Positions 11,388-28,769 of a stretch of DNA of 64,000 nucleotides are shown here, one piece after another. A program made the position numbers and the translations under genes. Numbering within the stretch: position 1 is the stretch's first letter; the number at the start of each line of letters is the position of its first letter. The notes beneath the pieces are model-generated. The model worked only from the letters and a program-made list of their open reading frames with translations, ran no database searches and was not told where the DNA came from. The stretch comes from Candidatus Planktophila sp. (GTDB taxonomy: Bacteria; Actinomycetota; Actinomycetes; Nanopelagicales; Nanopelagicaceae), in NCBI GenBank assembly GCA_017858325.1, contig JAFMBT010000007.1, forward strand, positions 1 to 64,000, in the 5' to 3' direction.

Positions 11388-12334
11388 AAGAGATGAAGAA
11401 AAATCTGATTCTTGATGTTGACACCGGAATTGATGATGCATTTGCGCTCTTATTTGCAGCGCGCCATCCTGAAATCAATCTCTTAGGTGTTACCTGTGTT
11501 GATGGAAACACCAATCTCAAGCAGGTAATCATCAATACGCTCAAAGTCCTTGATGCCGCAGGGGCTGCAGATATTCCAGTTGCAAAGGGTGCTACTCGCC
11601 CACTTATTGAAGAGCCACGTTATGCCGAATATATCCATGGCAGTGATGGTCTAGGTGATCTAGGAACACCACTATCAACGCGCGCGCTAGATCCGCGGCC
11701 AGCAGTTGAACTTATTCGTGATCTTATTGAAGGAACAGATGGCCCGGTAACTTTGGTTCCACTAGGTCCGCTGACAAATATTGCACTCTTCTTGCGTTCA
11801 TATCCAGAGACAGCTGCAAAGCTTGAGCGCATTGTATTGATGGGCGGATCAGCATCTTCTGGCAATGCCACACCTGCTGCAGAATTTAACGTCTGGCATG
11901 ATCCAGAGGCGGCAGCTATTGTCTTTAGTAGCGGAGTTCCAATCACAATGTATGGCCTTGATGTCTTTATGGAGCCACGCGTTTCGGCAGCACAAGCTGC
12001 AGCACTGATTGCAGAAGGTGCTGCCTGTTCAACATTTGCAGGGCGATTGATTGAGCACTTTATTAAGCAGGTTGGCCACGATGTGACGCTCGGTGATTAT
12101 GGCGCTGTCGCAACTGCGATCAAGCCAGAACTATCAACCTATGAACATTTTAAAATTGTTGTCGACACCAGCTTTGGCCCAAGTCGCGGACAAACTTTAT
12201 GTGATCGGCGCGAGTGGAAAGATGAAGAGCCAGAGTCAACTCATGCAAAGGCACCATTGGTACAGGTTGCCATGAAGGTGGATGTTCCAGCGATGATCTC
12301 GCTCTGGCTGAAGACAATTTCTACAAAGAGTTAA
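11384..12334 (+). CDS. Nucleoside hydrolase (IunH-type), paralogue 1
   Basis: N-terminal DVDTGIDDAFALLFAARHPEI; LVPLGPLTNIALFLR; MGGSASSGNATPAAEFNVWHDPEAA; overlaps P450 stop (GTGA). Confidence 0.93.
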   Translation: MKEMKKNLILDVDTGIDDAFALLFAARHPEINLLGVTCVDGNTNLKQVIINTLKVLDAAGAADIPVAKGATRPLIEEPRYAEYIHGSDGLGDLGTPLSTRALDPRPAVELIRDLIEGTDGPVTLVPLGPLTNIALFLRSYPETAAKLERIVLMGGSASSGNATPAAEFNVWHDPEAAAIVFSSGVPITMYGLDVFMEPRVSAAQAAALIAEGAACSTFAGRLIEHFIKQVGHDVTLGDYGAVATAIKPELSTYEHFKIVVDTSFGPSRGQTLCDRREWKDEEPESTHAKAPLVQVAMKVDVPAMISLWLKTISTKS

Positions 12335-13179
12335 ACCCCGATTGGGTGCCAGACAGTTTTATTCTCCATAAAGGAGAGAACTCGCTGTGGGCTCTTCGCC
12401 TCTTTGAATCTAAAGATTCGCTTGAGGTTATCTGCTCCTGCAATTCGAAGATCTTTCTCTTGCGCAGTTGATAAACCGCTAGCATCAATTCCATCGATAT
12501 CCATATGAGAGCTGGCCCAGGGAGCAAGTTCGGCCGGAGATCCGGTAAGAATGTTGACGACTCCCCCAGGTAGATCACTTGTTCCAAGTGCTTCGCTCAG
12601 TGTTATTGCACCAAGTGGATACTTTTCGCTAGCAATCACTATCGCGGTATTTCCACCAGCGAGAACCGGAGCAAGTGATTGCACTAGTCCAAGAAGTGAT
12701 GGCTTTGCTGGTGCAAAGACTGTAACCACGCCAAGGGCTTCAGGAATAGTGAAGTTATAGAACGACCCTGAGACAGCATTGGTTGAGCCGTAAATTGAGC
12801 CAATCTTGTCACACCACCCTGAGTACCAGACCCAGAGATCGATCGCTTCTTCCACCTGTTTTTTGGCAACAGATGGTGTTACTCCTTCGAGAGCAACGAT
12901 CTCATCGACAAATTGCGCAGTACGGCCTTCCATCATCTCTGCGATGCGGTACAAAATCTGTCCGCGGTTAAATGCAGTTGCACCAGACCATCCACCGTGC
13001 GCACCACGTGCTGCAACGACTGCATCTCGTAGATCTTTGCGTGAGGCAAGAGATGGGTTGGCGATAAAGTTGCCTTTGGAATCTTTAACTTCGTATGTGC
13101 GACCTGACTCGCTACGTGGGAAGGCTCCCCCGATAAAGAGTTTGTAGGTCTTCTTCACATCAATGCGAGAATCCGACAT
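12331..13179 (-). CDS. Half-length aldehyde dehydrogenase-family protein lacking the catalytic Cys domain (possible split ALDH16 C-terminal part)
   Basis: KLFIGGAFPRSESGRTYEV...GVVTVFAPAKPSLLGLVQSLAPVLAGGNTAIVI; 282 aa, no GQxC motif; directly downstream of the full-length ALDH. Confidence 0.85.
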   Translation of the reverse strand: MSDSRIDVKKTYKLFIGGAFPRSESGRTYEVKDSKGNFIANPSLASRKDLRDAVVAARGAHGGWSGATAFNRGQILYRIAEMMEGRTAQFVDEIVALEGVTPSVAKKQVEEAIDLWVWYSGWCDKIGSIYGSTNAVSGSFYNFTIPEALGVVTVFAPAKPSLLGLVQSLAPVLAGGNTAIVIASEKYPLGAITLSEALGTSDLPGGVVNILTGSPAELAPWASSHMDIDGIDASGLSTAQEKDLRIAGADNLKRIFRFKEAKSPQRVLSFMENKTVWHPIGV

Positions 13180-14615
13180 TACTTTGCTCCCTTCAAATAT
13201 GCAGCAAGTCCATGACGTCCACCTTCACGGCCCCAGCCAGATTCTTTATAACCACCAAATGGGCTGGCTGGATCAAATTTATTAAAGGTATTAGCCCAGA
13301 TGACTCCAGCCTTTAAATGCTTAGCTGTCCAAAGAATGCGTGATCCCTTATCGGTCCACACGCCGGCTGATAATCCATATGGGGTGTTGTTGGCTTTTTC
13401 AATCGCTTCTTGTGGAGTTCTAAATGAGATAACAGAAAGTACCGGACCAAAGATCTCTTCTCGTGCAATGCGGTGTGCTTGAGTAACGCCTGTGAAAAAT
13501 GTGGGTGGATACCAGAATCCTTTAGCAGGAATTGTGCAGGCGGCGGAGAAACGCTCAGCACCTTCAGTATCGCCAGAGATTGCGAGTTCGGTAATTTTCT
13601 CAAGCTGTTCACGCGAGTTAATTGCACCGATATCCGTGTTCTTATCCAGTGGATCGCCGAGGCGAATCTGGGACATGCGGCGCTTGAGTTTTTCGAGAAG
13701 TTCTTCTTGAATATTCTCTTGCACAAGAAGTCGTGAACCAGCGCAGCAGACGTGGCCTTGGTTAAAGAAGATTCCATTGATAATTCCTTCGACAGTTTCA
13801 TCGATGGGGGCATCTTCGAAGACGATATTTGCGCCCTTGCCGCCAAGTTCAAGGGTAAGTCCTTTGCCTGTGCCTGCAACTGAGCGGGCAATCAGCTTGC
13901 CGACATCGGTAGAGCCGGTAAATGCGATCTTATTAATTCCTGGGTGGTTAACCAGTGCAGCACCCGTTGCACCGTCACCGGTAACAATGTTGACAACTCC
14001 TGCTGGAAGTTCTGCCTGTTGGCAAACTTGAGCAAAGAGAAGTGCGGTCAACGGTGTTGTCTCTGCTGGCTTTAAGACAACGGTATTTCCTGTTGCAAGT
14101 GCCGGTGCAACTTTCCAGGCGAGCATTAAGAGCGGGAAGTTCCAAGGAATAATTTGTCCAACTACACCGTAAGGCTTTGGATTTTCACCAACACCGGCAT
14201 GCTCTAACTTATCTGCCCATCCTGCATGATAGAAAAAGTGTGCGGCAGAAAGTGGAATATCGATATCTCGCGTTTCACGGATGGGCTTTCCATTATCCAT
14301 AGTTTCAAGGACTGCAAATTCACGTGCACGCTCTTGCATTATCCGCGCAATACGATAGAGATATTTCCCGCGCTCTGCTGGCGCCATCTTCGACCAGACT
14401 TTAAGGCCATCCTGTGCCGCCTTAACTGCCTTATCGATATCGCTCTTCTCTGCGTAGGCGATCTTCGCTAAAACTTCTTCTGTCGCTGGATTTATAGTTG
14501 TAAAGGTCTTACCAGACTTTGGTGCTACAAACTTGCCGCCGATAAAGAGTTTATAGAGAGGATCAATTGTGACTATTGCCTTTGATTCTGGCGCACCGGA
14601 GTACTCAAATGTCAT
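13179..14615 (-). CDS. Aldehyde dehydrogenase (full length)
   Basis: LELGGKGANIVFEDAP, catalytic FFNQGHVCCAGSR, EEIFGPVLSVISF. Confidence 0.94.
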   Translation of the reverse strand: MTFEYSGAPESKAIVTIDPLYKLFIGGKFVAPKSGKTFTTINPATEEVLAKIAYAEKSDIDKAVKAAQDGLKVWSKMAPAERGKYLYRIARIMQERAREFAVLETMDNGKPIRETRDIDIPLSAAHFFYHAGWADKLEHAGVGENPKPYGVVGQIIPWNFPLLMLAWKVAPALATGNTVVLKPAETTPLTALLFAQVCQQAELPAGVVNIVTGDGATGAALVNHPGINKIAFTGSTDVGKLIARSVAGTGKGLTLELGGKGANIVFEDAPIDETVEGIINGIFFNQGHVCCAGSRLLVQENIQEELLEKLKRRMSQIRLGDPLDKNTDIGAINSREQLEKITELAISGDTEGAERFSAACTIPAKGFWYPPTFFTGVTQAHRIAREEIFGPVLSVISFRTPQEAIEKANNTPYGLSAGVWTDKGSRILWTAKHLKAGVIWANTFNKFDPASPFGGYKESGWGREGGRHGLAAYLKGAK

Positions 14616-14630
14616 CGTCTATTCCTTTAC

Positions 14631-15584
14631 CTAATCTAACGTCACATAATTTGCTCCGCCGTAATGGCCGGAGGTCAGCTTCTGTCTTTGCATCAGTAGA
14701 TCATTGAGCAGCGCGCTAGCACCGATTCGAAATAGCCCTGGGTTGAGCCATTCCTCTCCTGCCGTCTCTTTCACAAGAACTAATTGTTTGATGGCATCTT
14801 TTGTTGTTCTAATTCCACCCGCCGGTTTCACACCGATCCGCACACCTGTCATTTCGTAAAAATCACGGACCGCTTCTAGCATCACGAGTACGACTGGGGC
14901 CGTTGCAGCAGGTGCAACCTTGCCGGTACTTGTTTTGATGAAGTCAGCTCCGGCAGCCATGGCCAAGAAGCTCGCCTTTCGAACATTGTCATAGGTGACG
15001 AGTTCGCCGGTCTCAAGAATGACCTTCAAATGAGCCTTATCCCCGCATAGCGATTTGATGTAAACGATTTCACTATAAACCTTTTCAAGGTCCCCCGAGA
15101 GAAATGCTCCACGATCAATGACCATATCGATCTCGGTCGCTCCATCTGCGATGGCATCTTTTGTATCGCGCTCTTTTACTTCAAGGGATGCTCGACCTGA
15201 TGGAAATGCAGTCGACACTGCAGCAACTGGAATGTCGCCGCCGCCACTCTCGTCTAAATGTTTGCGTGCAGTGGCGACCATGTCGTTGTAAACACAGATT
15301 GCGCCGACATGAGGAACTGTTGGGTCAGTTGGATCCGGACGAATCGCTTTATTACAGATCGCTTTTACTTTTCCGTCAGTATCAGCACCTTCAAGAGTTG
15401 TTAAATCGATCATGCTAATTGCCATATCGATTGCCCATTTTTTACTTGCAGTCTTAATGCTACGTGTTGCGAGCATCGCAGCTCGTGCATCTGCACCAAC
15501 TTGGTCAACTGGCGATAAGGTCTTTAAGAAACCTTTAATCGATGCCAGCGAGCCATCAGTGAGTGCAGCAGCCGTAGTTACCAT
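14631..15584 (-). CDS. deoC: Deoxyribose-phosphate aldolase
   Basis: EIDMVIDRGAFLSGD, KVILETGELVTYDNV, DFIKTSTGK Schiff-base lysine motif, GVKPAGGIRTTKDA. Confidence 0.94.
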   Translation of the reverse strand: MVTTAAALTDGSLASIKGFLKTLSPVDQVGADARAAMLATRSIKTASKKWAIDMAISMIDLTTLEGADTDGKVKAICNKAIRPDPTDPTVPHVGAICVYNDMVATARKHLDESGGGDIPVAAVSTAFPSGRASLEVKERDTKDAIADGATEIDMVIDRGAFLSGDLEKVYSEIVYIKSLCGDKAHLKVILETGELVTYDNVRKASFLAMAAGADFIKTSTGKVAPAATAPVVLVMLEAVRDFYEMTGVRIGVKPAGGIRTTKDAIKQLVLVKETAGEEWLNPGLFRIGASALLNDLLMQRQKLTSGHYGGANYVTLD

Positions 15585-15645: not shown

Positions 15646-16584
15646 ATGAAGCCAACTCCGATAGTTCTTGACTGCGATCCGGGCCATGATGATGCACTAG
15701 CCATGATTTTAGCCGCCCATAATCCAGTAATTAATCTCTTGGCAATAACAACAGTCTCTGGCAATGGAATTATCGCTAAGGTCACACAGAACGCACTGTC
15801 AATCTGCGCTCTTGCAAAGATAAATGTTCCTGTCGCTGAAGGTGCTGGAAATGCAATTCTTGGATATATTGAAGCGGCGACAGATATTCACGGTGAGACC
15901 GCACTTGATGGTGCGCCACTTCCGACACCAGCTTTTGAACTTGAAAAGATTTCTGGTGTTGATCTCATTGCAAAAGTTGTTCGCGAGCATCCTGAAAAAG
16001 TCACTCTCGTTGCAACGGGTCCTCTAACAAATATTGCTCTCTTTCTTAAGCTCTACCCAGAACTTCGTAGCAACATTGCAGAGATCGTATTTATGGGTGG
16101 CAGCGCCTCACGCGGTAACCGCACACCATATGCCGAATTCAATATTTGGATGGATCCTGAGGCGGCCGATGTTGTCATGAAATCAGGTCTTCCACTGACA
16201 ATGTGTGGCCTTGATGTGACCCACCAGGCTCTTGTCACTCAGCCTATCTTTGCCAAACTAGAAGCGATGGGTACCAATCTTTCAAAGACCGTCATTGGCT
16301 TACTCAAATTCTTCGCCTCAACTTACAACGACGTCTTTGAGATGCCAGATCCACCATTGCACGATCCTGTTGCAATTGCGCTCTTAATTGATCGTTCAGT
16401 TGTAAAGACTCGTCGTTCAAATGTAGAGATCGAACTTAACGGCAAATTTACTCGCGGTGCCACGGTGGTAGATATCTACAACCGCAGCGGATCTGCGGCG
16501 AATGTGGATGTTGCGCTAGAGCTCGACTTCGATAAGTTCTGGTCGATGATGCTTGATGCTGTTGAAAAAGCTGGGAAGGCTTAA
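15646..16584 (+). CDS. Nucleoside hydrolase, paralogue 2
   Basis: LDCDPGHDDALAMILAAHNP; ATGPLTNIALFLK; MGGSASRGNRTPYAEFNIWMDPEAA. Confidence 0.94.
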   Translation: MKPTPIVLDCDPGHDDALAMILAAHNPVINLLAITTVSGNGIIAKVTQNALSICALAKINVPVAEGAGNAILGYIEAATDIHGETALDGAPLPTPAFELEKISGVDLIAKVVREHPEKVTLVATGPLTNIALFLKLYPELRSNIAEIVFMGGSASRGNRTPYAEFNIWMDPEAADVVMKSGLPLTMCGLDVTHQALVTQPIFAKLEAMGTNLSKTVIGLLKFFASTYNDVFEMPDPPLHDPVAIALLIDRSVVKTRRSNVEIELNGKFTRGATVVDIYNRSGSAANVDVALELDFDKFWSMMLDAVEKAGKA

Positions 16585-17333
16585 TCTATAGCGCGACCAT
16601 TTGCCTTATCGAAGGCGATGATTTCACGGAGTGCATCAATTGATGTATTAAGCAGAATATCTAGCGGTGGCATTGGCTCTTTTGCATGAACCATCATGAC
16701 TCCACCTGCACGAACCCTAAGCATTGAAGCGATAACAAAGAGCGCTGATGCCTCCATCTCAGAACAAATTGCACCACCAATCTCCCACGCTTTCCATCGG
16801 TTAAGCAGTTCTGAGGAAACACCCATTCGCTCAGGCTCATGTTGGCCATAGAAAGAGTCTTTTGATTGCGTGATTCCAATACGGTAATGAGCCTTGTTCT
16901 TTTCGGCAGCGCGCTTGATCGCCATGACAAGATCGATATCAGCAACGGCAGGAAACTCGATCGGCATGTAATGCTTTGACGTTCCTTCATCTCTAATTGC
17001 AGCAGAGATGATTGCTAGTTCACCAGAGACGCTATCTGGCTGAATATGGCCAGATGTACCGACTCGAATAAATGTATCGGCACCTACTCGTACCAACTCT
17101 TCGAGTGCGATAGCAGCTGATGGACAGCCAATTCCGGTTGAAGTTACAGAGACTTTAACTCCGTCGAGATATCCGGTGTAGGTGTTGTACTCGCGATTAG
17201 TTGCAACGTGTACTGGGTTATCAAAGAGGGCAGCGATCGGTTCACAGCGTCCAGGGTCACCGGGCAAGAGGACATACTTTCCGACATCACCTTTCTTTAA
17301 TTGAATGTGATATTGCTTCTCATCGTTAAGCAT
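16581..17333 (-). CDS. Nucleoside phosphorylase (uridine phosphorylase-like), tandem paralogue B
   Basis: YVLLPGDPGRCEPIA, STGIGCPSAAIALEEL, RVGTSGHI, EMEASALFVIASM. Confidence 0.92.
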   Translation of the reverse strand: MLNDEKQYHIQLKKGDVGKYVLLPGDPGRCEPIAALFDNPVHVATNREYNTYTGYLDGVKVSVTSTGIGCPSAAIALEELVRVGADTFIRVGTSGHIQPDSVSGELAIISAAIRDEGTSKHYMPIEFPAVADIDLVMAIKRAAEKNKAHYRIGITQSKDSFYGQHEPERMGVSSELLNRWKAWEIGGAICSEMEASALFVIASMLRVRAGGVMMVHAKEPMPPLDILLNTSIDALREIIAFDKANGRAID

Positions 17334-18057
17334 TCTGATCTCCCTTTATTAACTCGCGCAACGCTAACACTGCTGTTTCAATCAATGGTTCGAGTGAACC
17401 AAGTTCGCCTTCTCCATGCATCACCATGATGCCACCTGCACGTACTCGCAACATAGAGGCTACGACAAAGAGAGTAGAGGCCTCCATCTCAGAACAGATT
17501 GCCCCACCGACCTCCCACGCCTTCCAACGATCAAGCAGACGTTGGGTCACACCTGAATGCTCGGGTTCAACTTCGCCATAGAAAGAATCCTTGGATTGAG
17601 AAATTCCAACGCGATGAGCTAAGCCTTTATCGGTTGCAGCCTTGCGCAGTGCTTGCACAACCTCGTAATGTGCAACGGCTGGAAAATCTGCTGGCATGTA
17701 GTGCAGTGATGTTCCTTCATCGCGGATGGCAGCGCTGACAATTGCTAACTCGCCAGATTTAGTCCCTGGCTGGATCGAACCTGATGTACCCACGCGAATA
17801 AAAGTCTTTGCACCTACGCGCACGAGCTCTTCCATGGCAATAGCAGACGATGGACATCCAATACCCGTTGAAGTGACTGAGACTTTTACTCCATCTAAGT
17901 AACCCGTATACGTTACATATTCACGATTAGTTGCAATGTGCTTGGCATCATCAAAATGTCGTGCGATCACTTCTGCTCGACCAGGATCTCCGGGCATGAG
18001 GACATATTCACCGACATCACCTTCTTTAAGGTGAATATGGTGCTGCAGTTGGCTCAT
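17326..18057 (-). CDS. Nucleoside phosphorylase (uridine phosphorylase-like), tandem paralogue A
   Basis: YVLMPGDPGRAEVIA, STGIGCPSSAIAMEEL, RVGTSGSIQPG, EMEASTLFVVASM. Confidence 0.92.
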   Translation of the reverse strand: MSQLQHHIHLKEGDVGEYVLMPGDPGRAEVIARHFDDAKHIATNREYVTYTGYLDGVKVSVTSTGIGCPSSAIAMEELVRVGAKTFIRVGTSGSIQPGTKSGELAIVSAAIRDEGTSLHYMPADFPAVAHYEVVQALRKAATDKGLAHRVGISQSKDSFYGEVEPEHSGVTQRLLDRWKAWEVGGAICSEMEASTLFVVASMLRVRAGGIMVMHGEGELGSLEPLIETAVLALRELIKGDQNA

Positions 18058-18980
18058 AACAACTTAACCCTTTCGATAAAGAAATCCATAAAGGCTTCGA
18101 CATCAACTTCCATTGCAACCTTGGCATTAGGTGGATTACCAGTGGCGTTGAAGTGATCAGCCGATATCTTCGCTGTTGTAAAGTCGCCATGTAACTCAAC
18201 ATCAAGGTAATAATCTCGGAGCGTAACTAGCTCTGGTTTTACCAAGATCGCTGCTGCGAGTGGATCATTAATTGCACACCCCTGTATCCCCTGGTACTCC
18301 GCGTGAAACTCCATATAGAACGCGGTGGATCGATCGATGAACTCAGCTATATCTGCCCGTACACCTTTAAGTCTGGCCACATGATCTTTTGTAAAAAGAC
18401 ATTGGTAGGTCACATCTAGCGGCACAATTGTTAAATCAATGCCTGAGTGCAAAAGAATGTCAAAGCTTTCAGGATCACAGAAAACGTTATATTCAGATGA
18501 TGGGGTTGCATTTCCAGGATAATGAATCGTTCCTGCCATTGATACAACGCTCTTAATTTTCTTGCGAAGGCTGGGCTCTTTTAGTAGCGCTAGAGCGAGA
18601 TTAGTGACTGGACCAATACATAAGATTGTCACTTCCCCAGGATTAGCGTTCACAATCTCGATAATGAGATTAGCCGCATTCTCTTTTACCACAGTGATTG
18701 TTGGTGGCGGAAGAACAGCATGACCTAGACCGGTATCACCGTGGGTCTCTTCGGCCACGCTCAACGCTTTTACAAGTGGCTGATTGGCTCCGATGGCCAC
18801 CGGGATATCTTGCATTCCAAGAAGTTCCACCAACTTAAGAGCGTTTGTTGTGCTCTTTTCAACAGTGGTGTTGCCATGAGTTACAGTGATCGCTTGGAGT
18901 TTAATTTCGGGCATTGCCTTGAGTAAAACGAAGGCGAGAGCATCATCTATTCCAGGATCAGTATCAAGAATTACTTTCAT
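18054..18980 (-). CDS. Nucleoside hydrolase, paralogue 3
   Basis: MKVILDTDPGIDDALAFVLLKA; CIGPVTNLALALL; MAGTIHYPGNATPSSEYNVFCDPESFDILL; start moved from 19037 to ATG 18980. Confidence 0.93.
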   Translation of the reverse strand: MKVILDTDPGIDDALAFVLLKAMPEIKLQAITVTHGNTTVEKSTTNALKLVELLGMQDIPVAIGANQPLVKALSVAEETHGDTGLGHAVLPPPTITVVKENAANLIIEIVNANPGEVTILCIGPVTNLALALLKEPSLRKKIKSVVSMAGTIHYPGNATPSSEYNVFCDPESFDILLHSGIDLTIVPLDVTYQCLFTKDHVARLKGVRADIAEFIDRSTAFYMEFHAEYQGIQGCAINDPLAAAILVKPELVTLRDYYLDVELHGDFTTAKISADHFNATGNPPNAKVAMEVDVEAFMDFFIERVKLL

Positions 18981-20163
18981 CCGTAGCCACCTCCTCCTTG
19001 TGAAAGCCCCAGCCAAAGCATGAAATAACAGTAGCAAGGGCCGTTGCCGCCGTCATGAAATAAAAGCCCTTCCAGCCATCAAACTCTTCAACAATCACAC
19101 CACTGAGTGTGCTGCCGATTGTGATTCCGATCGATATCGCTGCACCTAGAAAAGCAAAAGATTCATTGAGGCGGCTAAGCGGGACAAGCTCTTTCATGAA
19201 AGCATTAGCTGAGATGAGCGCGGGGCCGATTGCAATTCCTGAAACGATGATCCAGAACGCAATCGTATCCAGATCTTGAAAGAAGAGAATTCCTGATGTA
19301 CAGACCGTCATTACAGCGAGAGAGACGGTGTACCTGATTGTGCTTGAAATTTTCCAATGAATAAATCCATAAATTAGCCCAGAAACGGCGCTACCAAGGG
19401 GATATAACCCAACCCATAGTCCACCATCTGATGCTCGGCCGCCTTCGGTGGCGACTGCGATGATCACGACGAAGTTCGAACCAAAGAGCAGCCCCATAGC
19501 AACAAGGGATAGCAACAATGATTTCACATAAGGAATAGATAAAATCCCACGAGAGTGATCATCTTCGACTCGAGCGAAACCACCATGGTCTGTACTTGTT
19601 ATTGCGAGGCCGATACCGCCGATGATGACAAAGACTATTCCAGCTAGCAACGGTGAGCGCGAACCATAGAGCGCAAAGAGAAAGCCTGCCAGCGCAGGAC
19701 CGACAACAAATGCAGTCTCGTCAAAAACTGATTCTAGCGACAAGGCTGAACTGAGTTCTTTCTCATCAGTTATTGAACGGCTCCAGCGCGTGCGGGTATA
19801 ACTTCCAAAGTTAGGAAATGTTGCACCAAAAATTGCAGCGAGTGCAAAGAGGCCAATAGTGGAACGATCAATAAAAAAGAGGAGCCCTAGCATCGCTAGA
19901 GCATTGATGAGGGTGACAGGTATAAGTACTGAACGAGTACCAAATCGATCGGCTAACTTGCCGATCCTCGGACTCACAATCGCACCAGCTAAGGTGTAGA
20001 AAGCCGATGTAATTCCAGCGAGTGCAAAAGAATCACGGACATCAGAGACGAGAAATACAATCGCCACTGTATTCATCGCCATCGGAACTCGGCCAATAAT
20101 GCCAAATCCGAAGGTTGATGGAGCGTGAGGTTTGCGCATTATTGATGCGTAAGACCCAGCCAA
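18964..20163 (-). CDS. MFS transporter
   Basis: ~12 hydrophobic segments; MFS motif-like GKLADRFGTRSVLIP; TTG start at 20163 or ATG at 20139. Confidence 0.85.
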   Translation of the reverse strand: MAGSYASIMRKPHAPSTFGFGIIGRVPMAMNTVAIVFLVSDVRDSFALAGITSAFYTLAGAIVSPRIGKLADRFGTRSVLIPVTLINALAMLGLLFFIDRSTIGLFALAAIFGATFPNFGSYTRTRWSRSITDEKELSSALSLESVFDETAFVVGPALAGFLFALYGSRSPLLAGIVFVIIGGIGLAITSTDHGGFARVEDDHSRGILSIPYVKSLLLSLVAMGLLFGSNFVVIIAVATEGGRASDGGLWVGLYPLGSAVSGLIYGFIHWKISSTIRYTVSLAVMTVCTSGILFFQDLDTIAFWIIVSGIAIGPALISANAFMKELVPLSRLNESFAFLGAAISIGITIGSTLSGVIVEEFDGWKGFYFMTAATALATVISCFGWGFHKEEVATDESNS

Positions 20164-20213: not shown

Positions 20214-20669
20214 TTAGGAATCTATTTCTTGCTGCCACTTGAGCAGAATGTCAAACGCCTTATCGAAACTATCTACAACATATCCTACATCTTCAACACA
20301 TCCACGCACAAAAAGATTTATTCCTTTACCGTCGATCATGTTGCGATCCCGGATGACGCGAGTATCAGTAACAAGGCCAATAATCCCCTTCTTACTCTTG
20401 TCGTGACGCATCTCAGACCAGAAAATTCCAATCTCAGTGGCAGTTCCGTCATCGACCATCGGACCATCGAGCAGGGCTAAAACAACATTTGCTCCGAGTA
20501 CTTCTTTGGCATCGGTATCGAAGATGAACTTTGTTGTAATGGGATCTGGGAGGGGTATCTCATGGGGGACAAAGACCTCCATCCCGGCATCGCGCATTCG
20601 CTTTGCGCACTGATCAATATAAGAGCGCTCATATGGAGTAAAAAGTGGTCCTGCAAAATAAATCTTCAT
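20214..20669 (-). CDS. Nucleoside 2-deoxyribosyltransferase family protein
   Basis: KIYFAGPLFTPYERSYID...LLDGPMVDDGTATEIGIFW...INLFVRGCVED matches NDT family. Confidence 0.88.
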   Translation of the reverse strand: MKIYFAGPLFTPYERSYIDQCAKRMRDAGMEVFVPHEIPLPDPITTKFIFDTDAKEVLGANVVLALLDGPMVDDGTATEIGIFWSEMRHDKSKKGIIGLVTDTRVIRDRNMIDGKGINLFVRGCVEDVGYVVDSFDKAFDILLKWQQEIDS

Positions 20670-20671
20670 TT

Positions 20672-21664
20672 TTAATACATCACAGTCTTAGTCAGGTGGT
20701 GGGGCCAATGTGTTGCGTGGTAAGTCTTCCAGAAACGGAAATCAACCTGCGGTTGAAGTAAAGGTTCCATTCCTGGACGTCGTTTATTAATCTCTTCGGT
20801 GAGCTTAGCAATGACAAAGATCGAACTGGCTCGCAATTCAATCTCGGCATCGCTATCGCGCTTAACCTCTGTCAGTGAATTGATCTGCTTCTCTAGTTCA
20901 GGTGCGTACTCAAAGATTCCCATTACTCGCAAACCCACAGGAACAATGTAGTCAGCAAAGGCGCTGAGCTTTTCGGCATCTTCTAACTTCCATGCACCTC
21001 GTGGTGAAAGCGCTAAGTGCATTCCCCAAATTCCTAGCTGAGCCAGCTTATAGATATGTATATCGGTACCGTGGTAATTGCTTACATCGCGGAAACGCGG
21101 AAACTCAGTGGTCAGGCGTTCCAGCAAGCCATCACCGCTGGCGTAGAGTTTTGGTGCACATGAACGGACAAAGCGTGAATAGCGGCCCTCGTACTTTTCC
21201 TCGAGCACTCGTCCGACCTCATTAAAGAGAGTGACGCGCTCATCAAGCATCGGCATCTCGATAGTCCCTGAGAAGACTGACTCAAGATCTTTTCGCGTGA
21301 GCTTTGCTAAATACTCTCCACTAAAGAATGGAATGCCGCTATGTATTGCGCGATGTAGGCAGGCCAACATCGCCTCTGAGTCACACCATCGCTTACCCAT
21401 GTAATCAGTTTCAAACTTGACCCCAGTGGAAAAATCTGTGAAGGCGAAGTTCATGGTGTTTACAACTAAAGTGAAATCCATAAGTACGTCAGGGTCATTT
21501 CCAAAATCAAAGAGCATAGAGCCATCTGGCTTTGCAAACTCTTCGTAGGCCATCCAATCAGCCACATATGAAATCTTCTCTGCATTAATTTTTACAAGAG
21601 ATGCCTCGCGTACTACCTGGCTTACAGTTGTGAGGACAGGTGTATCCCAATGAACAGTTGTCAT
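20672..21664 (-). CDS. Queuosine salvage family protein (DUF2419/Qng1-like N-glycosylase)
   Basis: Blocks VVNTMNFAF, GIPFFSGEYLAKLTRKDLESVF, MPMLDERVTLFNEVGRVLEEKYEGRY, FPRFRDVSNYHGTDIHIYKLAQL, AFADYIVPVGLRVMG, EIELRASSIF correspond to the human C9orf64/QNG1 family as I recall it. Confidence 0.85.
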   Translation of the reverse strand: MTTVHWDTPVLTTVSQVVREASLVKINAEKISYVADWMAYEEFAKPDGSMLFDFGNDPDVLMDFTLVVNTMNFAFTDFSTGVKFETDYMGKRWCDSEAMLACLHRAIHSGIPFFSGEYLAKLTRKDLESVFSGTIEMPMLDERVTLFNEVGRVLEEKYEGRYSRFVRSCAPKLYASGDGLLERLTTEFPRFRDVSNYHGTDIHIYKLAQLGIWGMHLALSPRGAWKLEDAEKLSAFADYIVPVGLRVMGIFEYAPELEKQINSLTEVKRDSDAEIELRASSIFVIAKLTEEINKRRPGMEPLLQPQVDFRFWKTYHATHWPHHLTKTVMY

Positions 21665-21673
21665 GATCTCCCC

Positions 21674-22921
21674 TTACTCAGAACCGCGACGATAAGGCAT
21701 ACCGGCCATTGCTGGTGGCGTGAGCCTTTGTGCCAAGAAGGTAAGAACAATCAGTGTTGTAAAGTTTGGGAAGACGGTGACAAACTCTTGCGGAATAATA
21801 TCTACGCGTTGATTTATCCAAAGTCCAAAGAACGCAACACCTATAGAAATCGCGGCAAACTTCCACCGACGCGCAATGGAGTAATAGATACCCAATATCG
21901 CTGCAACGATTCCTGCAACCATCACTAGAGACATGACCGATTCGCTTTGGCGCACTCGCAGCGCATCGGTAAAACCAAAGAGCATCGAGCCAGCAAATAC
22001 TCCACCTGGTCTCCAATTGCCGAAGATCACAGTTGCAAGTCCAATAAAGCCTCGGCCTGCTGTCTGTCCTTCACGATAAACAGATGATGCAACAAGGGCA
22101 AGGTAGGCGCCACCAAGGGAGGCCATCATTCCCGATATCGAAATCGCGATATACCGAATTCGATAGACGTTGATTCCGAGTGACTCTGCCGCCATTGGAT
22201 TCTCACCCGAAAATCTCATCCGTAGTCCAAACTTGCTACGCCAAAGGATCCATGAAGTAAGAGGGACAAGGAGAAGGAGTGCCACAGTTACCAGTGAAAG
22301 ATCCTTAGTAAGGCCATGTAGTACCCCAGCAAGGTTTGAAATAAAGAAGATATTTTGAGAATCTATCTTTTCAAGAAGTGGGGCGATGATTGGAATTGTA
22401 AATGTCGGAAATGAATCAACTGGTGGAGAAACGGTCCGGTCTCCACCGACCGGTGGGAAGAAAATACCAGAGAGATAGCGGGCTCCACCGGCAGCAATCA
22501 AATTAATTGCTAGTCCAGATACCGCTTGATCAATGCCTATTTTGACAGTCAATACTGCATGGAAGAAGCCAGATGCAAGTCCGAAGATTGCAGCAGCGGC
22601 AAATCCAACAAGTGGTCCATGTAGATATCCAAACCATGCCGCCGTCCATGTTCCAACGATCATCATTCCTTCAAGACCAATATTAATAACACCTACTCGC
22701 TCAGCCCACAATCCACCGAGTCCAGCCATAAGGAGTGGAATTGCAAAACGCAAAGTTGCTCCAGATGTTCCTGGTGACGTGATATCTGTTGCACCAGTAA
22801 TTAACTCAACAAGTGAAATGATAAAGAAGAGGCCAGCGATCGCTAAAGTGATACGTGCTGGTGATGTGAAGAACTTTTTGGCCTTGCTTCTCTTCTTTTC
22901 AGGGGTTTTAGCAGTCATCAC
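21674..22921 (-). CDS. Nucleoside ABC transporter permease (BPD_transp_2, NupQ-like)
   Basis: FAIPLLMAGLGGLWAERVGVINIGLEGMMIVG...LGINVYRIRYIAISISGMMASLGGAYLAL. Confidence 0.93.
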   Translation of the reverse strand: MMTAKTPEKKRSKAKKFFTSPARITLAIAGLFFIISLVELITGATDITSPGTSGATLRFAIPLLMAGLGGLWAERVGVINIGLEGMMIVGTWTAAWFGYLHGPLVGFAAAAIFGLASGFFHAVLTVKIGIDQAVSGLAINLIAAGGARYLSGIFFPPVGGDRTVSPPVDSFPTFTIPIIAPLLEKIDSQNIFFISNLAGVLHGLTKDLSLVTVALLLLVPLTSWILWRSKFGLRMRFSGENPMAAESLGINVYRIRYIAISISGMMASLGGAYLALVASSVYREGQTAGRGFIGLATVIFGNWRPGGVFAGSMLFGFTDALRVRQSESVMSLVMVAGIVAAILGIYYSIARRWKFAAISIGVAFFGLWINQRVDIIPQEFVTVFPNFTTLIVLTFLAQRLTPPAMAGMPYRRGSE

Positions 22922-24009
22922 TGTGATTCCTTTAGACTAGAGGCTTCCGCATTGACTTTCCCTACCGCTCGTTGCTGTTGACGCAGATTGACTCGAGCAA
23001 CTAGCTCGTAGGCGACAACTATGGAGAGAACAATAGTTCCCTGCATCACGATGGTAATTTCTGGCGGAACTCCCTCGAATTCAAGGACAGGGGCGGTGCG
23101 CTCCAAGAAGGACCAGAGAAAGGCGGCAAAGAATATTCCGACTGGGTGATTTCTTCCAAGCAGCGCTAGAGCTAAACCAGTAAATGCATATCCAGCTGGA
23201 AATGCCATGCTGTATGAATGTGTATCAGAGAGAAGTGTTCCGATGCCGACGAGGCCAGCGATTGCACCAGATAAAATGGTGGTGATAAAGATCATTCCAG
23301 GTGCGTTGACGCCACTTGAACGAGCCGCTCTAAAAGATAATCCAGTGGCGCGAAGATTAAAACCAAAGACTGTCTTATTCAGCATCACCCAATAAGCGAT
23401 ACCTACAGCGATTGCCACAAAGAGAAAGGAGTAGATTTCCCCGTTAAAGGCCTTGATTGTTGGCATTTGACCACTCAGAGGAATCTTCCTCGTTTGAAGA
23501 TTCTGGGAACCTTCGGGCAGCGTGCCGAGTAGATCTTCGCTGAGCAAGAATGCGATGATCGCTGCTGCAATAAAATTGAGCATAATGTTACTAATAACTT
23601 CAGAGATTCCTCGGCGAACTTTGAGGTATCCCGCAATCGCTGCCCATAGACCACCGGCAAGCATCGCAGTGATAATGATGAGGGTAACATGCAGAATTGG
23701 CGGAAGATTTACTGCAGCACCCACTACAGCACCAAAGAATGCACCCATTCGATATTGACCATCGATACCAATATTAAAGAGCAGCATTTTAAATCCAATG
23801 GCTGCTGCGACGCCAGCCATGTAATAAGCGATTGTCTGATTCAGTTCGGAGACAAGATTACGTGGTTGAAAACCATACGAAACCATCTCAGCGAATATAT
23901 CAATTGGATTAACACCGCGAATCGTCAGAATAATATAGACAAAAATGAGTGAGCTTAAGATAGCCGCTACCGGAGCAAGGGTGCCCCAAAAAATTCTGCT
24001 CTTTGTCAT
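22918..24009 (-). CDS. Nucleoside ABC transporter permease (BPD_transp_2, NupP-like)
   Basis: GFKMLLFNIGIDGQYRMGAFFGA...RRGISEVISNIMLNFIA...GLSFRAARSSGVN; overlaps neighbours. Confidence 0.93.
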   Translation of the reverse strand: MTKSRIFWGTLAPVAAILSSLIFVYIILTIRGVNPIDIFAEMVSYGFQPRNLVSELNQTIAYYMAGVAAAIGFKMLLFNIGIDGQYRMGAFFGAVVGAAVNLPPILHVTLIIITAMLAGGLWAAIAGYLKVRRGISEVISNIMLNFIAAAIIAFLLSEDLLGTLPEGSQNLQTRKIPLSGQMPTIKAFNGEIYSFLFVAIAVGIAYWVMLNKTVFGFNLRATGLSFRAARSSGVNAPGMIFITTILSGAIAGLVGIGTLLSDTHSYSMAFPAGYAFTGLALALLGRNHPVGIFFAAFLWSFLERTAPVLEFEGVPPEITIVMQGTIVLSIVVAYELVARVNLRQQQRAVGKVNAEASSLKESQ

Positions 24010-25520
24010 GCGCTGATTGCCCCAGTCATTGCCAGGCCAAGATCTTCTGCTGTTGTTGTTGAAGGGTTGAGTATCGAAACAATACTTCCGCCGTAGATCA
24101 CTGCGATCCGATCAGAGAGAGAGAAGAGCTCTTCAAGATCTGCCGAGATCAACAGAATTCCAGCACCCCGCGTACGCGCCTTCATGAGTTGTTCCCAGAT
24201 AATTGCTTGAGCACCAACATCAACGCCACGAGTAGGTTGGGCTGCGATGATCAAATGAGGATCACCGCTAAGTTCGCGGCCCACAATAAATTTCTGTTGA
24301 TTTCCACCAGAGAGCGCACTCGCTAAAACATTTACTCCTGGAGTGCGAACATCGAATTCTGCAACAACTCGTTTCGAGTCTTCTGCCGCAGATCCTTTAT
24401 TCACCCAGATACCTTTAGCCATGGGCTGCGAAAATTGATGGCCTAGGATGCGGTTCTCCCACAGTGGTGCGGACATAAGAAGTCCATCGCGTTGGCGATC
24501 TTGTGGAATATATCCAACGCCAGCATTTCTAATATCTCGTGTTGGTGTAGTCACAGTATTAAGACCAAGCACTTCAACGGTTCCAGAGGATGGTCTCATC
24601 AGACCCATAATGAGTTCAATGAGTTCACTCTGACCATTTCCTTCAACTCCGGCTAGGCCAAGAATTTCACCTCCGTGAAGATCTAGGTTAACTCCACGAA
24701 GGATCTCGCGTCCATCTGCACGTGAATAAGAAGCGCCTTTAATAGTCAAAATACTCTTGCTACTAATATTTTGAGCACCCGCCTTTGGCCTAGGCAGTTC
24801 GCCTCCCACCATTAATTCTGCGAGCTCTTTCTTATTTGTATCATGAGGCTTACGCGAAGCAACAGTCGTGCCCTGACGCATGATCGTTATTTCATCAGCG
24901 ATTGCGAGTACCTCATCTAATTTGTGAGAAATAAAGAGGACCGTGAGTCCCTTATTTACAAGTTCACGCAAGTTTGTAAAAAGTTCTGAAACTTCTTGAG
25001 GAACCAATACTGCTGTTGGCTCATCAAGAATCAAAATCTTTGCACCGCGGAATAGCACCTTTGCGATTTCAACTCTTTGACGTTCACCAACGCCCAAGTT
25101 AGAGATGGATTCATCAGGATCGATATCTAGCTGATATGTATGGGCGATTTCAACCAACTTCTTTCTTGCCTCTTCAAATTTAATAGCAAAACCAAAGCGA
25201 GAAGGTTCACTTCCTAAAATAACATTTTCAAGAACAGTTGCATTATCTGCTAACTTAAAGTGTTGATGGACCATTCCAATACCAAGTGCGATCGCATCTT
25301 GTGGGGATTTGAGGGAGACTTCCCTGTCAAAAACTTTTATTACACCTGCATCGGGGCGGACTAAGCCGTAGAGAATCTTCATCAGCGTGGATTTTCCAGC
25401 TCCGTTTTCACCAATAATTGCGTGAATCGAGCCTTCACGAACATGGAGAGAGACCCCCTGATTAGCGATAACGCCAGGGTACTTCTTCTCTACTCCATCA
25501 ACTTCGAGAATATTTACCAC
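24006..25520 (-). CDS. Nucleoside ABC transporter ATP-binding protein (duplicated ABC domains, NupO-like)
   Basis: GENGAGKSTLMKILYGL, LGVGERQRVEIAKVLFRGAKILILDEPTAVL, second domain LSGGNQQKFIVGREL. Confidence 0.94.
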   Translation of the reverse strand: MVNILEVDGVEKKYPGVIANQGVSLHVREGSIHAIIGENGAGKSTLMKILYGLVRPDAGVIKVFDREVSLKSPQDAIALGIGMVHQHFKLADNATVLENVILGSEPSRFGFAIKFEEARKKLVEIAHTYQLDIDPDESISNLGVGERQRVEIAKVLFRGAKILILDEPTAVLVPQEVSELFTNLRELVNKGLTVLFISHKLDEVLAIADEITIMRQGTTVASRKPHDTNKKELAELMVGGELPRPKAGAQNISSKSILTIKGASYSRADGREILRGVNLDLHGGEILGLAGVEGNGQSELIELIMGLMRPSSGTVEVLGLNTVTTPTRDIRNAGVGYIPQDRQRDGLLMSAPLWENRILGHQFSQPMAKGIWVNKGSAAEDSKRVVAEFDVRTPGVNVLASALSGGNQQKFIVGRELSGDPHLIIAAQPTRGVDVGAQAIIWEQLMKARTRGAGILLISADLEELFSLSDRIAVIYGGSIVSILNPSTTTAEDLGLAMTGAISA

Positions 25521-25602: not shown

Positions 25603-26652
25603 TTATGCCTTTGGATCAGTTGGAACTACAACATCACCTGAAGCGATCTTTGCTGCGTACTCTTCGATCTGTGAAGTGAGGTCATCGATGTATCCACCTG
25701 TTGTGGTGTATCCAACTCCGCCTTCAGCAAATCCCCAAGTCTTTACTCCTGCAGTATCTACGCCTGCAAGTGCATCAGCAACGAATGCTGCAACACCAAC
25801 ATCAACACGCTTAAGCATTGATGTAAGAATTGTTGTTACGTAATCAGCATGTGCTGGATAAGTTGCTTCGTCAGCATCTACGCCGACTGACCACTTTCCA
25901 AGCTCGGATGCTGCCTTATGTAGACCAGTTCCGGTTCCACCAGCTGCTGCATAAACAACATCTGCGCCGTTCTCGTACATACCCTTAGCAGCTTCGTATC
26001 CCTTTGCAGGATCGTTAAATCCTGAGAAGTCTGGGAAGTTGCTGATGTAGGTTGACTGAACCTTGATTCCTGCGTTTACAGCCTTTGCACCTGCGATGAA
26101 GCCAGCCTCAAACTTAGCGATCAAAGGTGTATTAACTCCACCAATAAATCCAACGTTATTTGACTTGCTCTTCAAAGCTGCTGCAACACCAACGAGGTAA
26201 GAGCCTTCTTCTTCTTTAAAGACGATGCTGTGAACGTTTGGTGCTGTCACAGATGAATCATCAACGATTCCCCATGTTGTATCAGGAAATTCTGGTGCAA
26301 CTTTTGCAAGTGCTGCAGCATAAGTGAAGCCAACAACCACGATTGGGTTTGCGCCCTTTTGTGCCATCAGCCGGAGACGCTCAGCACGCTGATCATCTGT
26401 TGCTGTTGGGTTATCTTGTGACTCGATGAGCTCAAGAGAATCATTAGCTGCGAGTAGTGGTTCTACTCCGATATACGCAAGCTGGTTAAACCCTGGAACA
26501 TCGCGTCCACCTAGGCTATAGGCAATTCCAATTGTTCCGGAAAGGTTCTCTGCTGCATCTTCACTATCGCTACCGCAACCGGTAACAACTGTGGCGGTTA
26601 GGGTTGCAGCAAGTGCAATGACTCCCCAGCGGCCTAGAAGTTTCTTCTGCAT
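25603..26652 (-). CDS. BMP family nucleoside-binding lipoprotein
   Basis: Lipobox VTGCGSD; GTIGIAYSLGGRDVPGFNQLAYIGV...GVDADEATYPAHADYVTTILTSMLKRVDVGV; start moved to ATG 26652 with upstream AAGGAGAAA. Confidence 0.94.
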   Translation of the reverse strand: MQKKLLGRWGVIALAATLTATVVTGCGSDSEDAAENLSGTIGIAYSLGGRDVPGFNQLAYIGVEPLLAANDSLELIESQDNPTATDDQRAERLRLMAQKGANPIVVVGFTYAAALAKVAPEFPDTTWGIVDDSSVTAPNVHSIVFKEEEGSYLVGVAAALKSKSNNVGFIGGVNTPLIAKFEAGFIAGAKAVNAGIKVQSTYISNFPDFSGFNDPAKGYEAAKGMYENGADVVYAAAGGTGTGLHKAASELGKWSVGVDADEATYPAHADYVTTILTSMLKRVDVGVAAFVADALAGVDTAGVKTWGFAEGGVGYTTTGGYIDDLTSQIEEYAAKIASGDVVVPTDPKA

Positions 26653-26676
26653 TCGGTATTTCTCCTTTTGTTTATT

Positions 26677-26690
26677 TGAGTGATCACTCA
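26677..26690. promoter_or_regulatory. Perfect 14-bp palindrome, candidate LacI-family operator
   Basis: TGAGTGATCACTCA just upstream of the RBS of the BMP gene and downstream of the LacI-type regulator gene. Confidence 0.55.
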
Positions 26691-26725
26691 TTTACCCAAT
26701 GGTCTGCCTTGTTGAAAGCGATCGT

Positions 26726-27724
26726 CTACATCTCCCGGGGAGGTGCACACGATCCTCTCTCAACTAGTTGTACATCGACCATTGAATGCTCAGGTGGGGT
26801 GCTAACCCCGGTGGCGAGATGCTTAATCATCATCTGCATCGCTAGCGATCCTTGCAGACGCGCATCTCGGGCGATCACAGTAAGAGGAGGGCTAATCAGT
26901 TCTGCAAAATCAAGATCATCAAATCCAATAATCGAGATCTGATGTGGAACGTGTACTCCGCGATCGCGCAGGGCATGTAGTGCGCCGATTGTCATAAGAT
27001 TATTGGCGATAAAGACGGCGGTCGGTGCCTCATCTCGCTCAAAAAGAGCGCACATCGATGCATACCCACCCGCTTCGCTGAAATCAGATTCGATGAAATA
27101 TTGGGGGGTGAGAGAAGCCTTCTTGAGCGAGGCGCGAAAGCCATCAGCTCGTCTCTTTCCGGGAGTGGTTGTCAGCGGACCGCTAATCATCGCGATCTTC
27201 TTATGGCCTAGCCCGATCAAATAATCAGTAGCAATTGATGCACCTCTGGAATTATCAGTCAGGACTGAGCTAAATCTTTCTCCATTTCGCGTAACACGAT
27301 CAACAAAGACTATGGGAAGACCAAACTGGCTAAAAAATGAGGGGCCTTCTTCATCTTCAGTCAATGGAGCCATAATGACGCCGTCCACACGTCCAAATAA
27401 TTGAGTCAGCGCCTTCTCCTCACGTTCACGCGAGTCTCCCGTGTTAACAAGCAAGATCATACGGTCGTCACCAACAGCGCTCTCTGCACCTTCAACAATT
27501 GAAGCAAAGAAAGGATTGGTGATATCTGGGACAACGATTGCAATGATGCCTGTTCGACCGGATTTGAGGTTTCTTGCCGCAGCACTTGGGCGATAGTTCA
27601 AATCAATAATTGCCTGTCGAATTTTTTCTTCGTTACGGACAGTGAAACCACTGAGATGGCGTGAGATCGTTGCAACTGAAACACCGACATGTTTAGCCAC
27701 GTCGGTGATTGTTACAGTGGACAA
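26726..27724 (-). CDS. LacI family transcriptional regulator
   Basis: VTITDVAKHVGVSVATISRHLSG HTH; LNYRPSAAARNLKSGRTGIIAIVVPDITNPFFASIVEGAE; TTG start. Confidence 0.94.
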   Translation of the reverse strand: MSTVTITDVAKHVGVSVATISRHLSGFTVRNEEKIRQAIIDLNYRPSAAARNLKSGRTGIIAIVVPDITNPFFASIVEGAESAVGDDRMILLVNTGDSREREEKALTQLFGRVDGVIMAPLTEDEEGPSFFSQFGLPIVFVDRVTRNGERFSSVLTDNSRGASIATDYLIGLGHKKIAMISGPLTTTPGKRRADGFRASLKKASLTPQYFIESDFSEAGGYASMCALFERDEAPTAVFIANNLMTIGALHALRDRGVHVPHQISIIGFDDLDFAELISPPLTVIARDARLQGSLAMQMMIKHLATGVSTPPEHSMVDVQLVERGSCAPPREM

Positions 27725-27845: not shown

Positions 27846-28769
27846 ATGTCAAAGCAGCCATTTGTTGTAGTCGTTGGCAGCACAATGATTGACATGGTTG
27901 CATACGTAAAAAAAGTTCCACATGCTGGTGAAACAGTAACTGGTGATTCATTTGCATTGGGCTTTGGTGGCAAGGGTGCAAACCAAGCAGTGATGGCAAG
28001 ACGTCTGGGTGCAACAGTCTCGATGGTCAACACGTTAGGTGATGATGTATTTGGAGACACTACTCTCTCTAATTTCCAAGAGCAAGGTATCGATGTGACG
28101 TTTGTGTCACGGACTGCCGGAGCTAGTGGAGTGGCTCCGATTTGGGTAGAGCCCGATGGAAGTAATCGAATTATCTGCGTTCCTGGAGCAAATAGCGCAA
28201 TGACTCCGGCAGAGGCTAAATCTGCACTTGAGAGTTTGAAGGGCTATGACATTGTTATTGGCCAACTAGAAATTCCACAAGAAGTCACAATTCAAGCCTT
28301 CGCAACGGCTCGCTCATGTGGCGCACGCACTGTTTTAAACCCCGCTCCCTTTGCTGCGATATCGCCAGAATTAATTGCGCTAAGCGATTGGATTATTCCT
28401 AATGAGAGCGAATTCGCGGGAATGCATCCGCAAGGTTTAGAACCAACAAGTGATGAGATCATTCTTGAACTTGCAAGAAATCTCAAAACTCGTTTTGCAG
28501 TAACTCTTGGTGATCAAGGTGCAGCCTTTACAACCCTCGATGGACGAGTAGAGCGTGGGCGTGCCCCACAGGTCACCGCTATCGACACCACAGGTGCGGG
28601 TGATGCATTTGTAGGGGCATTTTCAGTCGGATTAGCCCTTGGACTACCTGATCAGCAGGCGATCGCTCTAGGCTGCGCGTGTGCATCGGATAGTGTCACT
28701 AGACTTGGCACTCAATCTTCATATCCAACACCGACGATGGCCGAGGCGATTCTTCACTCGATTGGCTAG
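27846..28769 (+). CDS. rbsK: Ribokinase / PfkB family sugar kinase
   Basis: [63 protein letters not shown]. Confidence 0.9.

Follow-up and report, generated by a model that had tools for sequence, protein, structure and literature searches.

A variant Qng1-like N-glycosidase coupled to a BMP-type nucleoside importer in a freshwater actinobacterium, with queuosine or a close relative as a possible substrate

In Candidatus Planktophila sp. (Nanopelagicaceae), a gene related to the queuosine-salvage glycosylases lies within what looks like a nucleoside-import operon, which raises the question of which nucleoside its product cleaves, and whether it acts at the nucleoside or the 5'-monophosphate level. 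We analyzed the locus in a window of 64,000 nucleotides (contig JAFMBT010000007.1, positions 1 to 64,000), and compared it with related loci in the family and in other phyla. The gene cluster comprises the following features:

12331..13179, minus strand: aldehyde dehydrogenase 2 (short), assigned from position and sequence; its order is conserved in family loci
13179..14615, minus strand: aldehyde dehydrogenase 1 (ALDH models at ≤ 465 bits, none above its own cut-off)
14631..15584, minus strand: deoxyribose-phosphate aldolase DeoC (TIGR00126 above cut-off)
15646..16584, plus strand: nucleoside hydrolase NH2 (UriH/RihA models at 330–335 bits, under their cut-offs)
16581..17333, minus strand: uridine phosphorylase-like protein UP2 (PF01048; TIGR01718 271 bits, cut-off 280)
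17326..18057, minus strand: uridine phosphorylase-like protein UP1 (PF01048; TIGR01718 266 bits, cut-off 280)
18054..19037, minus strand: IU nucleoside hydrolase NH1 (PF01156, 5e-95)
18964..20163, minus strand: MFS transporter, a second transporter candidate (PF07690)
20214..20669, minus strand: nucleoside 2-deoxyribosyltransferase-like protein, NDT (PF05014, 1e-16)
20672..21664, minus strand: Qng1/DUF2419-like N-glycosidase of a variant (“FTDF”) clade (PF10343, 5e-58; PDB Qng1, 8e-46; model TM ∼0.9 to 7u91/7ulc)
21674..22921, minus strand: ABC permease 2 of a BMP-type nucleoside importer (PF02653)
22918..24009, minus strand: ABC permease 1 (PF02653)
24006..25520, minus strand: ABC ATPase with two ATPase domains (PF00005, two stretches)
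25603..26691, minus strand: BMP/PnrA-type substrate-binding protein (PF02608, 2e-51)
26726..27724, minus strand: LacI-type regulator (from sequence: N-terminal HTH, TITDVAKHVGVSVATISRHL)
27846..28769, plus strand: divergent ribokinase (TIGR02152 281 bits, cut-off 299.65; PDB ribokinases to 1e-54; motifs)

The window gene is real and belongs to the Qng1 superfamily (PF10343). Its ORF encodes 330 aa from an ATG start, with a Shine-Dalgarno sequence rated good (AAGGGGAG) 5' of the ATG. The preliminary description of this DNA had placed the protein in the Qng1/DUF2419 family and proposed a profile search, and the assignment held at every level: the PF10343 Q_salvage profile matches with 197 bits against a cut-off of 25, DUF2419 chains are recovered from the PDB, and the top 11 Foldseek matches of an AlphaFold2 model (pLDDT 92.2, pTM 0.90, used instead of a poor one of pLDDT 73 from a shallow alignment) are all DUF2419/Qng1 entries (TM 0.84–0.92, identity 22–31%). 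Queuosine-bound Sphaerobacter Qng1 (7u91/7ulc) matches at 30–31% identity. Fold and full-length alignment are thus shared with the Qng1 enzymes of Sphaerobacter thermophilus (St; 7u07, 7u1o, and 7u91) and human (7ugk and 8dl3). Among the matches ranked after the DUF2419 entries, helix-hairpin-helix DNA glycosylases come closest in fold, but their E-values are not significant.

The genomic setting likewise agrees with the preliminary description, which had put qng1 in a nucleoside-import operon, separated by 9 nt from the last permease gene (stop at 21674) and by 2 nt from the NDT-like gene (20669). Bmp (PF02608), ABC_tran, and two BPD_transp_2 (PF02653) genes lie upstream in one operon, and PF05014 lies downstream. 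This is the same set of a PF02608 binding protein, a double ATPase, and two BPD_transp_2 permeases as in BMP/PnrA-type nucleoside ABC transporters, from which the window importer differs in sharing its operon with a Qng1-like enzyme. For the importer, the NCBIfam models that score best are putative vitamin B6 transporters, far under their cut-offs.

All four active-site positions considered are retained in the alignment with structurally characterized Qng1, K206, D238, D308, and W312 of the window protein corresponding to K199, D231, D298, and W302 in St numbering, and their equivalents are kept throughout the clade. D298 and W302 are active-site residues of St Qng1 (PMC11592518), and PDB titles name K199C (7u5a) and D231N (7ulc) as the mutants behind substrate complexes. 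Qng1-like chemistry, i.e. hydrolysis of a nucleoside N-glycoside, is likely.

Around these residues the protein departs from the known enzymes. An altered VVNTMNF block, pointed out in the preliminary description, is real and extends further than described, reading VVNTMNFAFT in the window, VLDAVNFCFW in Sphaerobacter, and VTDTLNFSFW in human. Several positions common to St and human Qng1 are replaced jointly in the clade: D69 by N, A, S, G, or T (D being retained only in two Acidobacteriota members), W76 by T or S, GYW92-94 by DSE or close variants, S206 of St/human Qng1 by W, and the C-terminal P[FY]HRxRxI by PHHLTxTxM (HRxR to HLTx). By the sequence features examined, the protein would not be classed as a canonical Qng1. 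With D69, W76, Y93/W94, and HRxR replaced through the clade, queuosine may no longer fit, and the C-terminal HRxR is possibly the phosphate site. The earlier suggestion of a shifted specificity thus gains support, the block change being clade-wide and accompanied by further substitutions at conserved positions.

Phylogeny places these proteins in a clade of their own. The “FTDF” clade separates from St and human Qng1 with 100/100 support on a long stem, in a tree that took in only two canonical sequences, includes some long branches, and does not settle the root. Solved bacterial Qng1 clusters with human QNG1 and the window clade stands apart from both (∼30% identity of the window protein to St Qng1), so that the label “eukaryotic-type” given in the preliminary description is misleading. 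Clade members occur in Actinomycetota, Chloroflexota, Acidobacteriota, Pseudomonadota, and Armatimonadota, and a genome scan found relatives with ∼50% identity or above in Nanopelagicaceae, Acidimicrobiia, Chloroflexota, Acidobacteriota, Gammaproteobacteria, and Armatimonadota. Elsewhere in the phylum there is a third PF10343 type, in which NFGSGW replaces NFxFW (loci L092, L095, and L097–L101), and three genomes have two separate loci with a Qng1 of the window clade (second copies L216, L217, and L218).

Within Nanopelagicaceae, 22 of the 251 genomes scanned carry qng1. The variants show high identity and invariant active-site residues, and none of the matches has internal stops. The order ABC-Qng1-(NDT)-MFS-NH-UP is kept in the 20 family loci read, as far as contigs reach, apart from a few loci that lack single genes: after importer permease 2 comes qng1, followed by NDT and/or MFS and then by the hydrolase and phosphorylase genes. 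Such conservation is not chance. An orthologue of permease 2 (≥ 56% identity) is present in 22 family genomes, 21 of which also carry qng1; in the remaining one the contig ends inside the permease, and the single genome with qng1 and no permease (G140) has qng1 only on a 1260-base contig. The NDT-like gene adjoins qng1 in most family loci, and a LacI homologue sits between importer and kinase in many of the clusters. Roughly half of the family loci have the NDT-like gene on the opposite strand, still adjacent to qng1 (L056–L062, L064, and L067).

Other family genomes carry a paralogous importer with 45–50% identity, whose cluster lacks qng1 and has DeoC and ALDHs in common with the window cluster (ten loci read); a Pfam scan of one locus found thymidine phosphorylase and adenosine deaminase genes. 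The family thus has two alternative clusters for nucleoside use, and qng1 is part of one of them. One scanned locus of the alternative cluster (L205–L214) also contains a cytochrome P450 gene, and a like-sized gene occupies the same place in others.

The association with nucleoside catabolism extends beyond the family. IU hydrolases, uridine phosphorylase-like genes, DeoC, ALDH, and ribokinase are co-located with the clade gene across phyla, and in Acidimicrobiia and Chloroflexota, too, an MFS gene adjoins qng1. Of 49 loci outside Nanopelagicales, 33 have a ribokinase-like gene no more than 5.5 kb from qng1; in 21 distant loci it adjoins qng1 directly, often without the rest of the cluster. 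Ribokinase is the best model for the neighboring kinases (273–289 bits in the seven scanned, against a cut-off of 299.65), and ribokinase motifs (N/M-x-D, GGKGAN, and DTTGAGD) are present in the window kinase and in all 53 neighboring kinases checked. The window kinase itself (27846–28769) falls below the TIGR02152 equivalog cut-off, yet its best model and best PDB matches are ribokinases. With these matches and motifs, a role of the PfkB neighbor as a queuosine kinase is less likely. The repeated link of a ribokinase to the clade suggests, as the simplest explanation, that the clade enzyme frees ribose from nucleosides and does not act on 5'-monophosphates. Together with the type of the import operon, this link makes the 5'-phosphate substrate, an option left open in the preliminary description, less likely.

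Some Acidimicrobiia have a PF02578 (PgeF/YfiH-type) gene shortly ahead of the Qng1-like gene (position −1 in L169 and L184, −2 in L176). A CD3073-type ECF S component and ABC ATPases adjoin it in freshwater Chloroflexota (L152, L154, L156, and L180). We did not accept the ECF S component of Aquidulcis-type genomes as QrtT, since both the CD3073 family and PF12822 score below their cut-offs.

Does the genome have a use for a freed queuine? The window genome (99.9% complete) encodes one TGT (L001, 1474–2748), found by the genome-wide tgt search that the preliminary description had proposed. Searches of this genome, which covered QueA, QueC, and, of the known Q-precursor transporters, the QPTR/PF02592 family, found none of the three. 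The presence of tgt without QueA and the de novo gene QueC is the gene content of direct queuine salvage, and with QPTR also absent it marks the genome as that of a salvager. In a survey of Q transporters (PMC11130926), genomes of this gene content are predicted to be q salvagers with unknown transporters; the survey also expects most Actinomycetota to salvage queuine and underlines that Q-precursor transporters are missing for many of them, and its main text does not name BMP, PF02608, or PF02653. The earlier expectation that queuosine salvage is not general in Actinobacteria is not borne out, TGT being present in 231 of 251 family genomes. We rejected tgt presence alone as evidence of function: it is nearly universal in the family, where only 22 of 251 genomes have qng1, and occurs in 46 of 50 clade genomes, so that it counts as weak evidence. 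No tgt lies near any distant qng1 locus.

The pocket loop of this genome's TGT reads GGAL---DKK, with a three-residue deletion; it lacks the Val of the preQ1-type motif GGLAVG (GGLAVGE in Zymomonas TGT) and matches neither that motif nor the q-type GG[LS][AS]G (PMC11570991). TGTs of the whole family share this 7-substituent pocket loop, with and without qng1 (L001, L026–L055). Those QueA-negative Chloroflexota of the clade that were examined have a q-type pocket (GGLAGDE). QueA is present in 29 of 50 clade genomes, and the TGTs of QueA-positive carriers are preQ1-type in nine of nine examined (GGL[AS]VGE), so that in these genomes freed queuine could not go straight into tRNA. As to transport, qng1 of Limnocylindrus-type Chloroflexota, where TGT has the queuine-type pocket, has a QPTR-family gene at 15 nt; in six loci such a gene comes directly after qng1 or close by, scoring above the Pfam cut-off and slightly under that of TIGR00697. 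Acidobacteriota loci of the clade have a ureide permease in their neighborhood, and, according to PMC11130926, a UPS beside an Acidobacteriota qng1 (possibly of another clade) transports preQ0/preQ1, not Q, in E. coli.

The reading we favor, at what we judge to be an even chance, is a nucleoside-level Qng1 variant that acts on queuosine or a close relative brought in by the BMP transporter; for queuosine or a close relative as the substrate, taken by itself, we see about even odds. The BMP-type ABC importer, perhaps along with the MFS protein, would take up queuosine in its free form or a close relative of the 7-deazaguanosine kind. The variant Qng1 would hydrolyze the N-glycosidic bond through the family Lys/Asp pair K206/D238, setting free both the base and ribose. 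TGT of the cell, which has a pocket loop other than the preQ1 type, would then place the base (queuine) in tRNA, and the divergent ribokinase would phosphorylate the ribose. Neighboring hydrolases, phosphorylases, DeoC, and ALDHs would consume ordinary nucleosides entering through the same importer. A simple queuine route has against it the presence of QueA in over half of the sampled carriers and the preQ1-type pockets of the nine such TGTs examined; the queuosine reading as a whole has against it the replaced D69, W76, Y93/W94, and HRxR, a family TGT that mostly occurs without qng1, a cluster context that is mainly nucleoside catabolism, and the lack of tgt near distant loci.

The main rival reading is that the clade has changed its substrate, making the protein a catabolic N-ribosylhydrolase for a different nucleoside, such as another modified purine or a nucleoside that the neighboring hydrolases and phosphorylases leave, with queuosine salvage incidental or absent. 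We regard this as possible but short of probable. The joint replacement of St/human-conserved positions on a long, fully supported branch points this way, as do the catabolic and ribokinase genes nearby across phyla, QueA in 29 of 50 carriers, and the fact that the family has two nucleoside clusters, one with qng1 and one with thymidine phosphorylase and adenosine deaminase genes in its stead. Set against it are the retained fold and catalytic residues, the QPTR-family neighbor in six loci, the q-type TGT of QueA-negative Chloroflexota carriers, and the ureide permease near the Acidobacteriota loci, considering the preQ0/preQ1 transport by a qng1-linked UPS of that phylum described in PMC11130926. 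Were it so, PF10343 would have a second enzymatic function, the clade with its ribokinase and importers hydrolyzing a non-queuosine nucleoside to base and free ribose, a tentative proposal of the same weight.

It is unlikely that the enzyme is functionally a canonical Qng1, supplied with queuosine-5'-monophosphate by a nucleoside kinase encoded elsewhere and producing queuine and ribose-5-phosphate. Q-5'-MP is stated to be the primary substrate of Sphaerobacter Qng1 (PMC11592518), and fold and catalytic residues are the same; however, the HRxR of human and St, possibly the phosphate site, is HLTx here, the linked kinase is by motif and best match a ribokinase and not a nucleoside kinase, and ribose-5-phosphate would not need a ribokinase. 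Decay to a non-enzymatic relative is very improbable: beyond sequence divergence and patchy distribution nothing speaks for it, and the high identity, invariant active-site residues, and uninterrupted reading frames across the family speak against it.

Compared with known Qng1/QNG1, the favored nucleoside-level variant differs in forming a separate clade and in its place in a nucleoside-catabolic cluster with a ribokinase. Indirect queuine salvage by QueK and QueL in Clostridioides difficile likewise hydrolyzes imported queuosine to free queuine (PMC11130926 and PMC11570991), and QueK is, according to the former, a protein family unrelated to Qng1. What is new here is the clade and its partnership with ribokinase and importer. 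The strict pairing of a Qng1-type gene with a single BMP ABC importer offers, in a freshwater lineage, a candidate for one of the Q-precursor transporters missing in many Actinomycetota. The ribokinase partner, in turn, suggests that Qng1 chemistry operates here at the level of the nucleoside. Should the substrate be a different one, the label “queuosine salvage protein” would be a misannotation in a large number of bacteria, and nucleoside catabolism would be making use of a DNA-glycosylase-like fold. The variant probably lets this freshwater actinobacterium reuse scavenged queuosine, and its altered pocket leaves room for another nucleoside.
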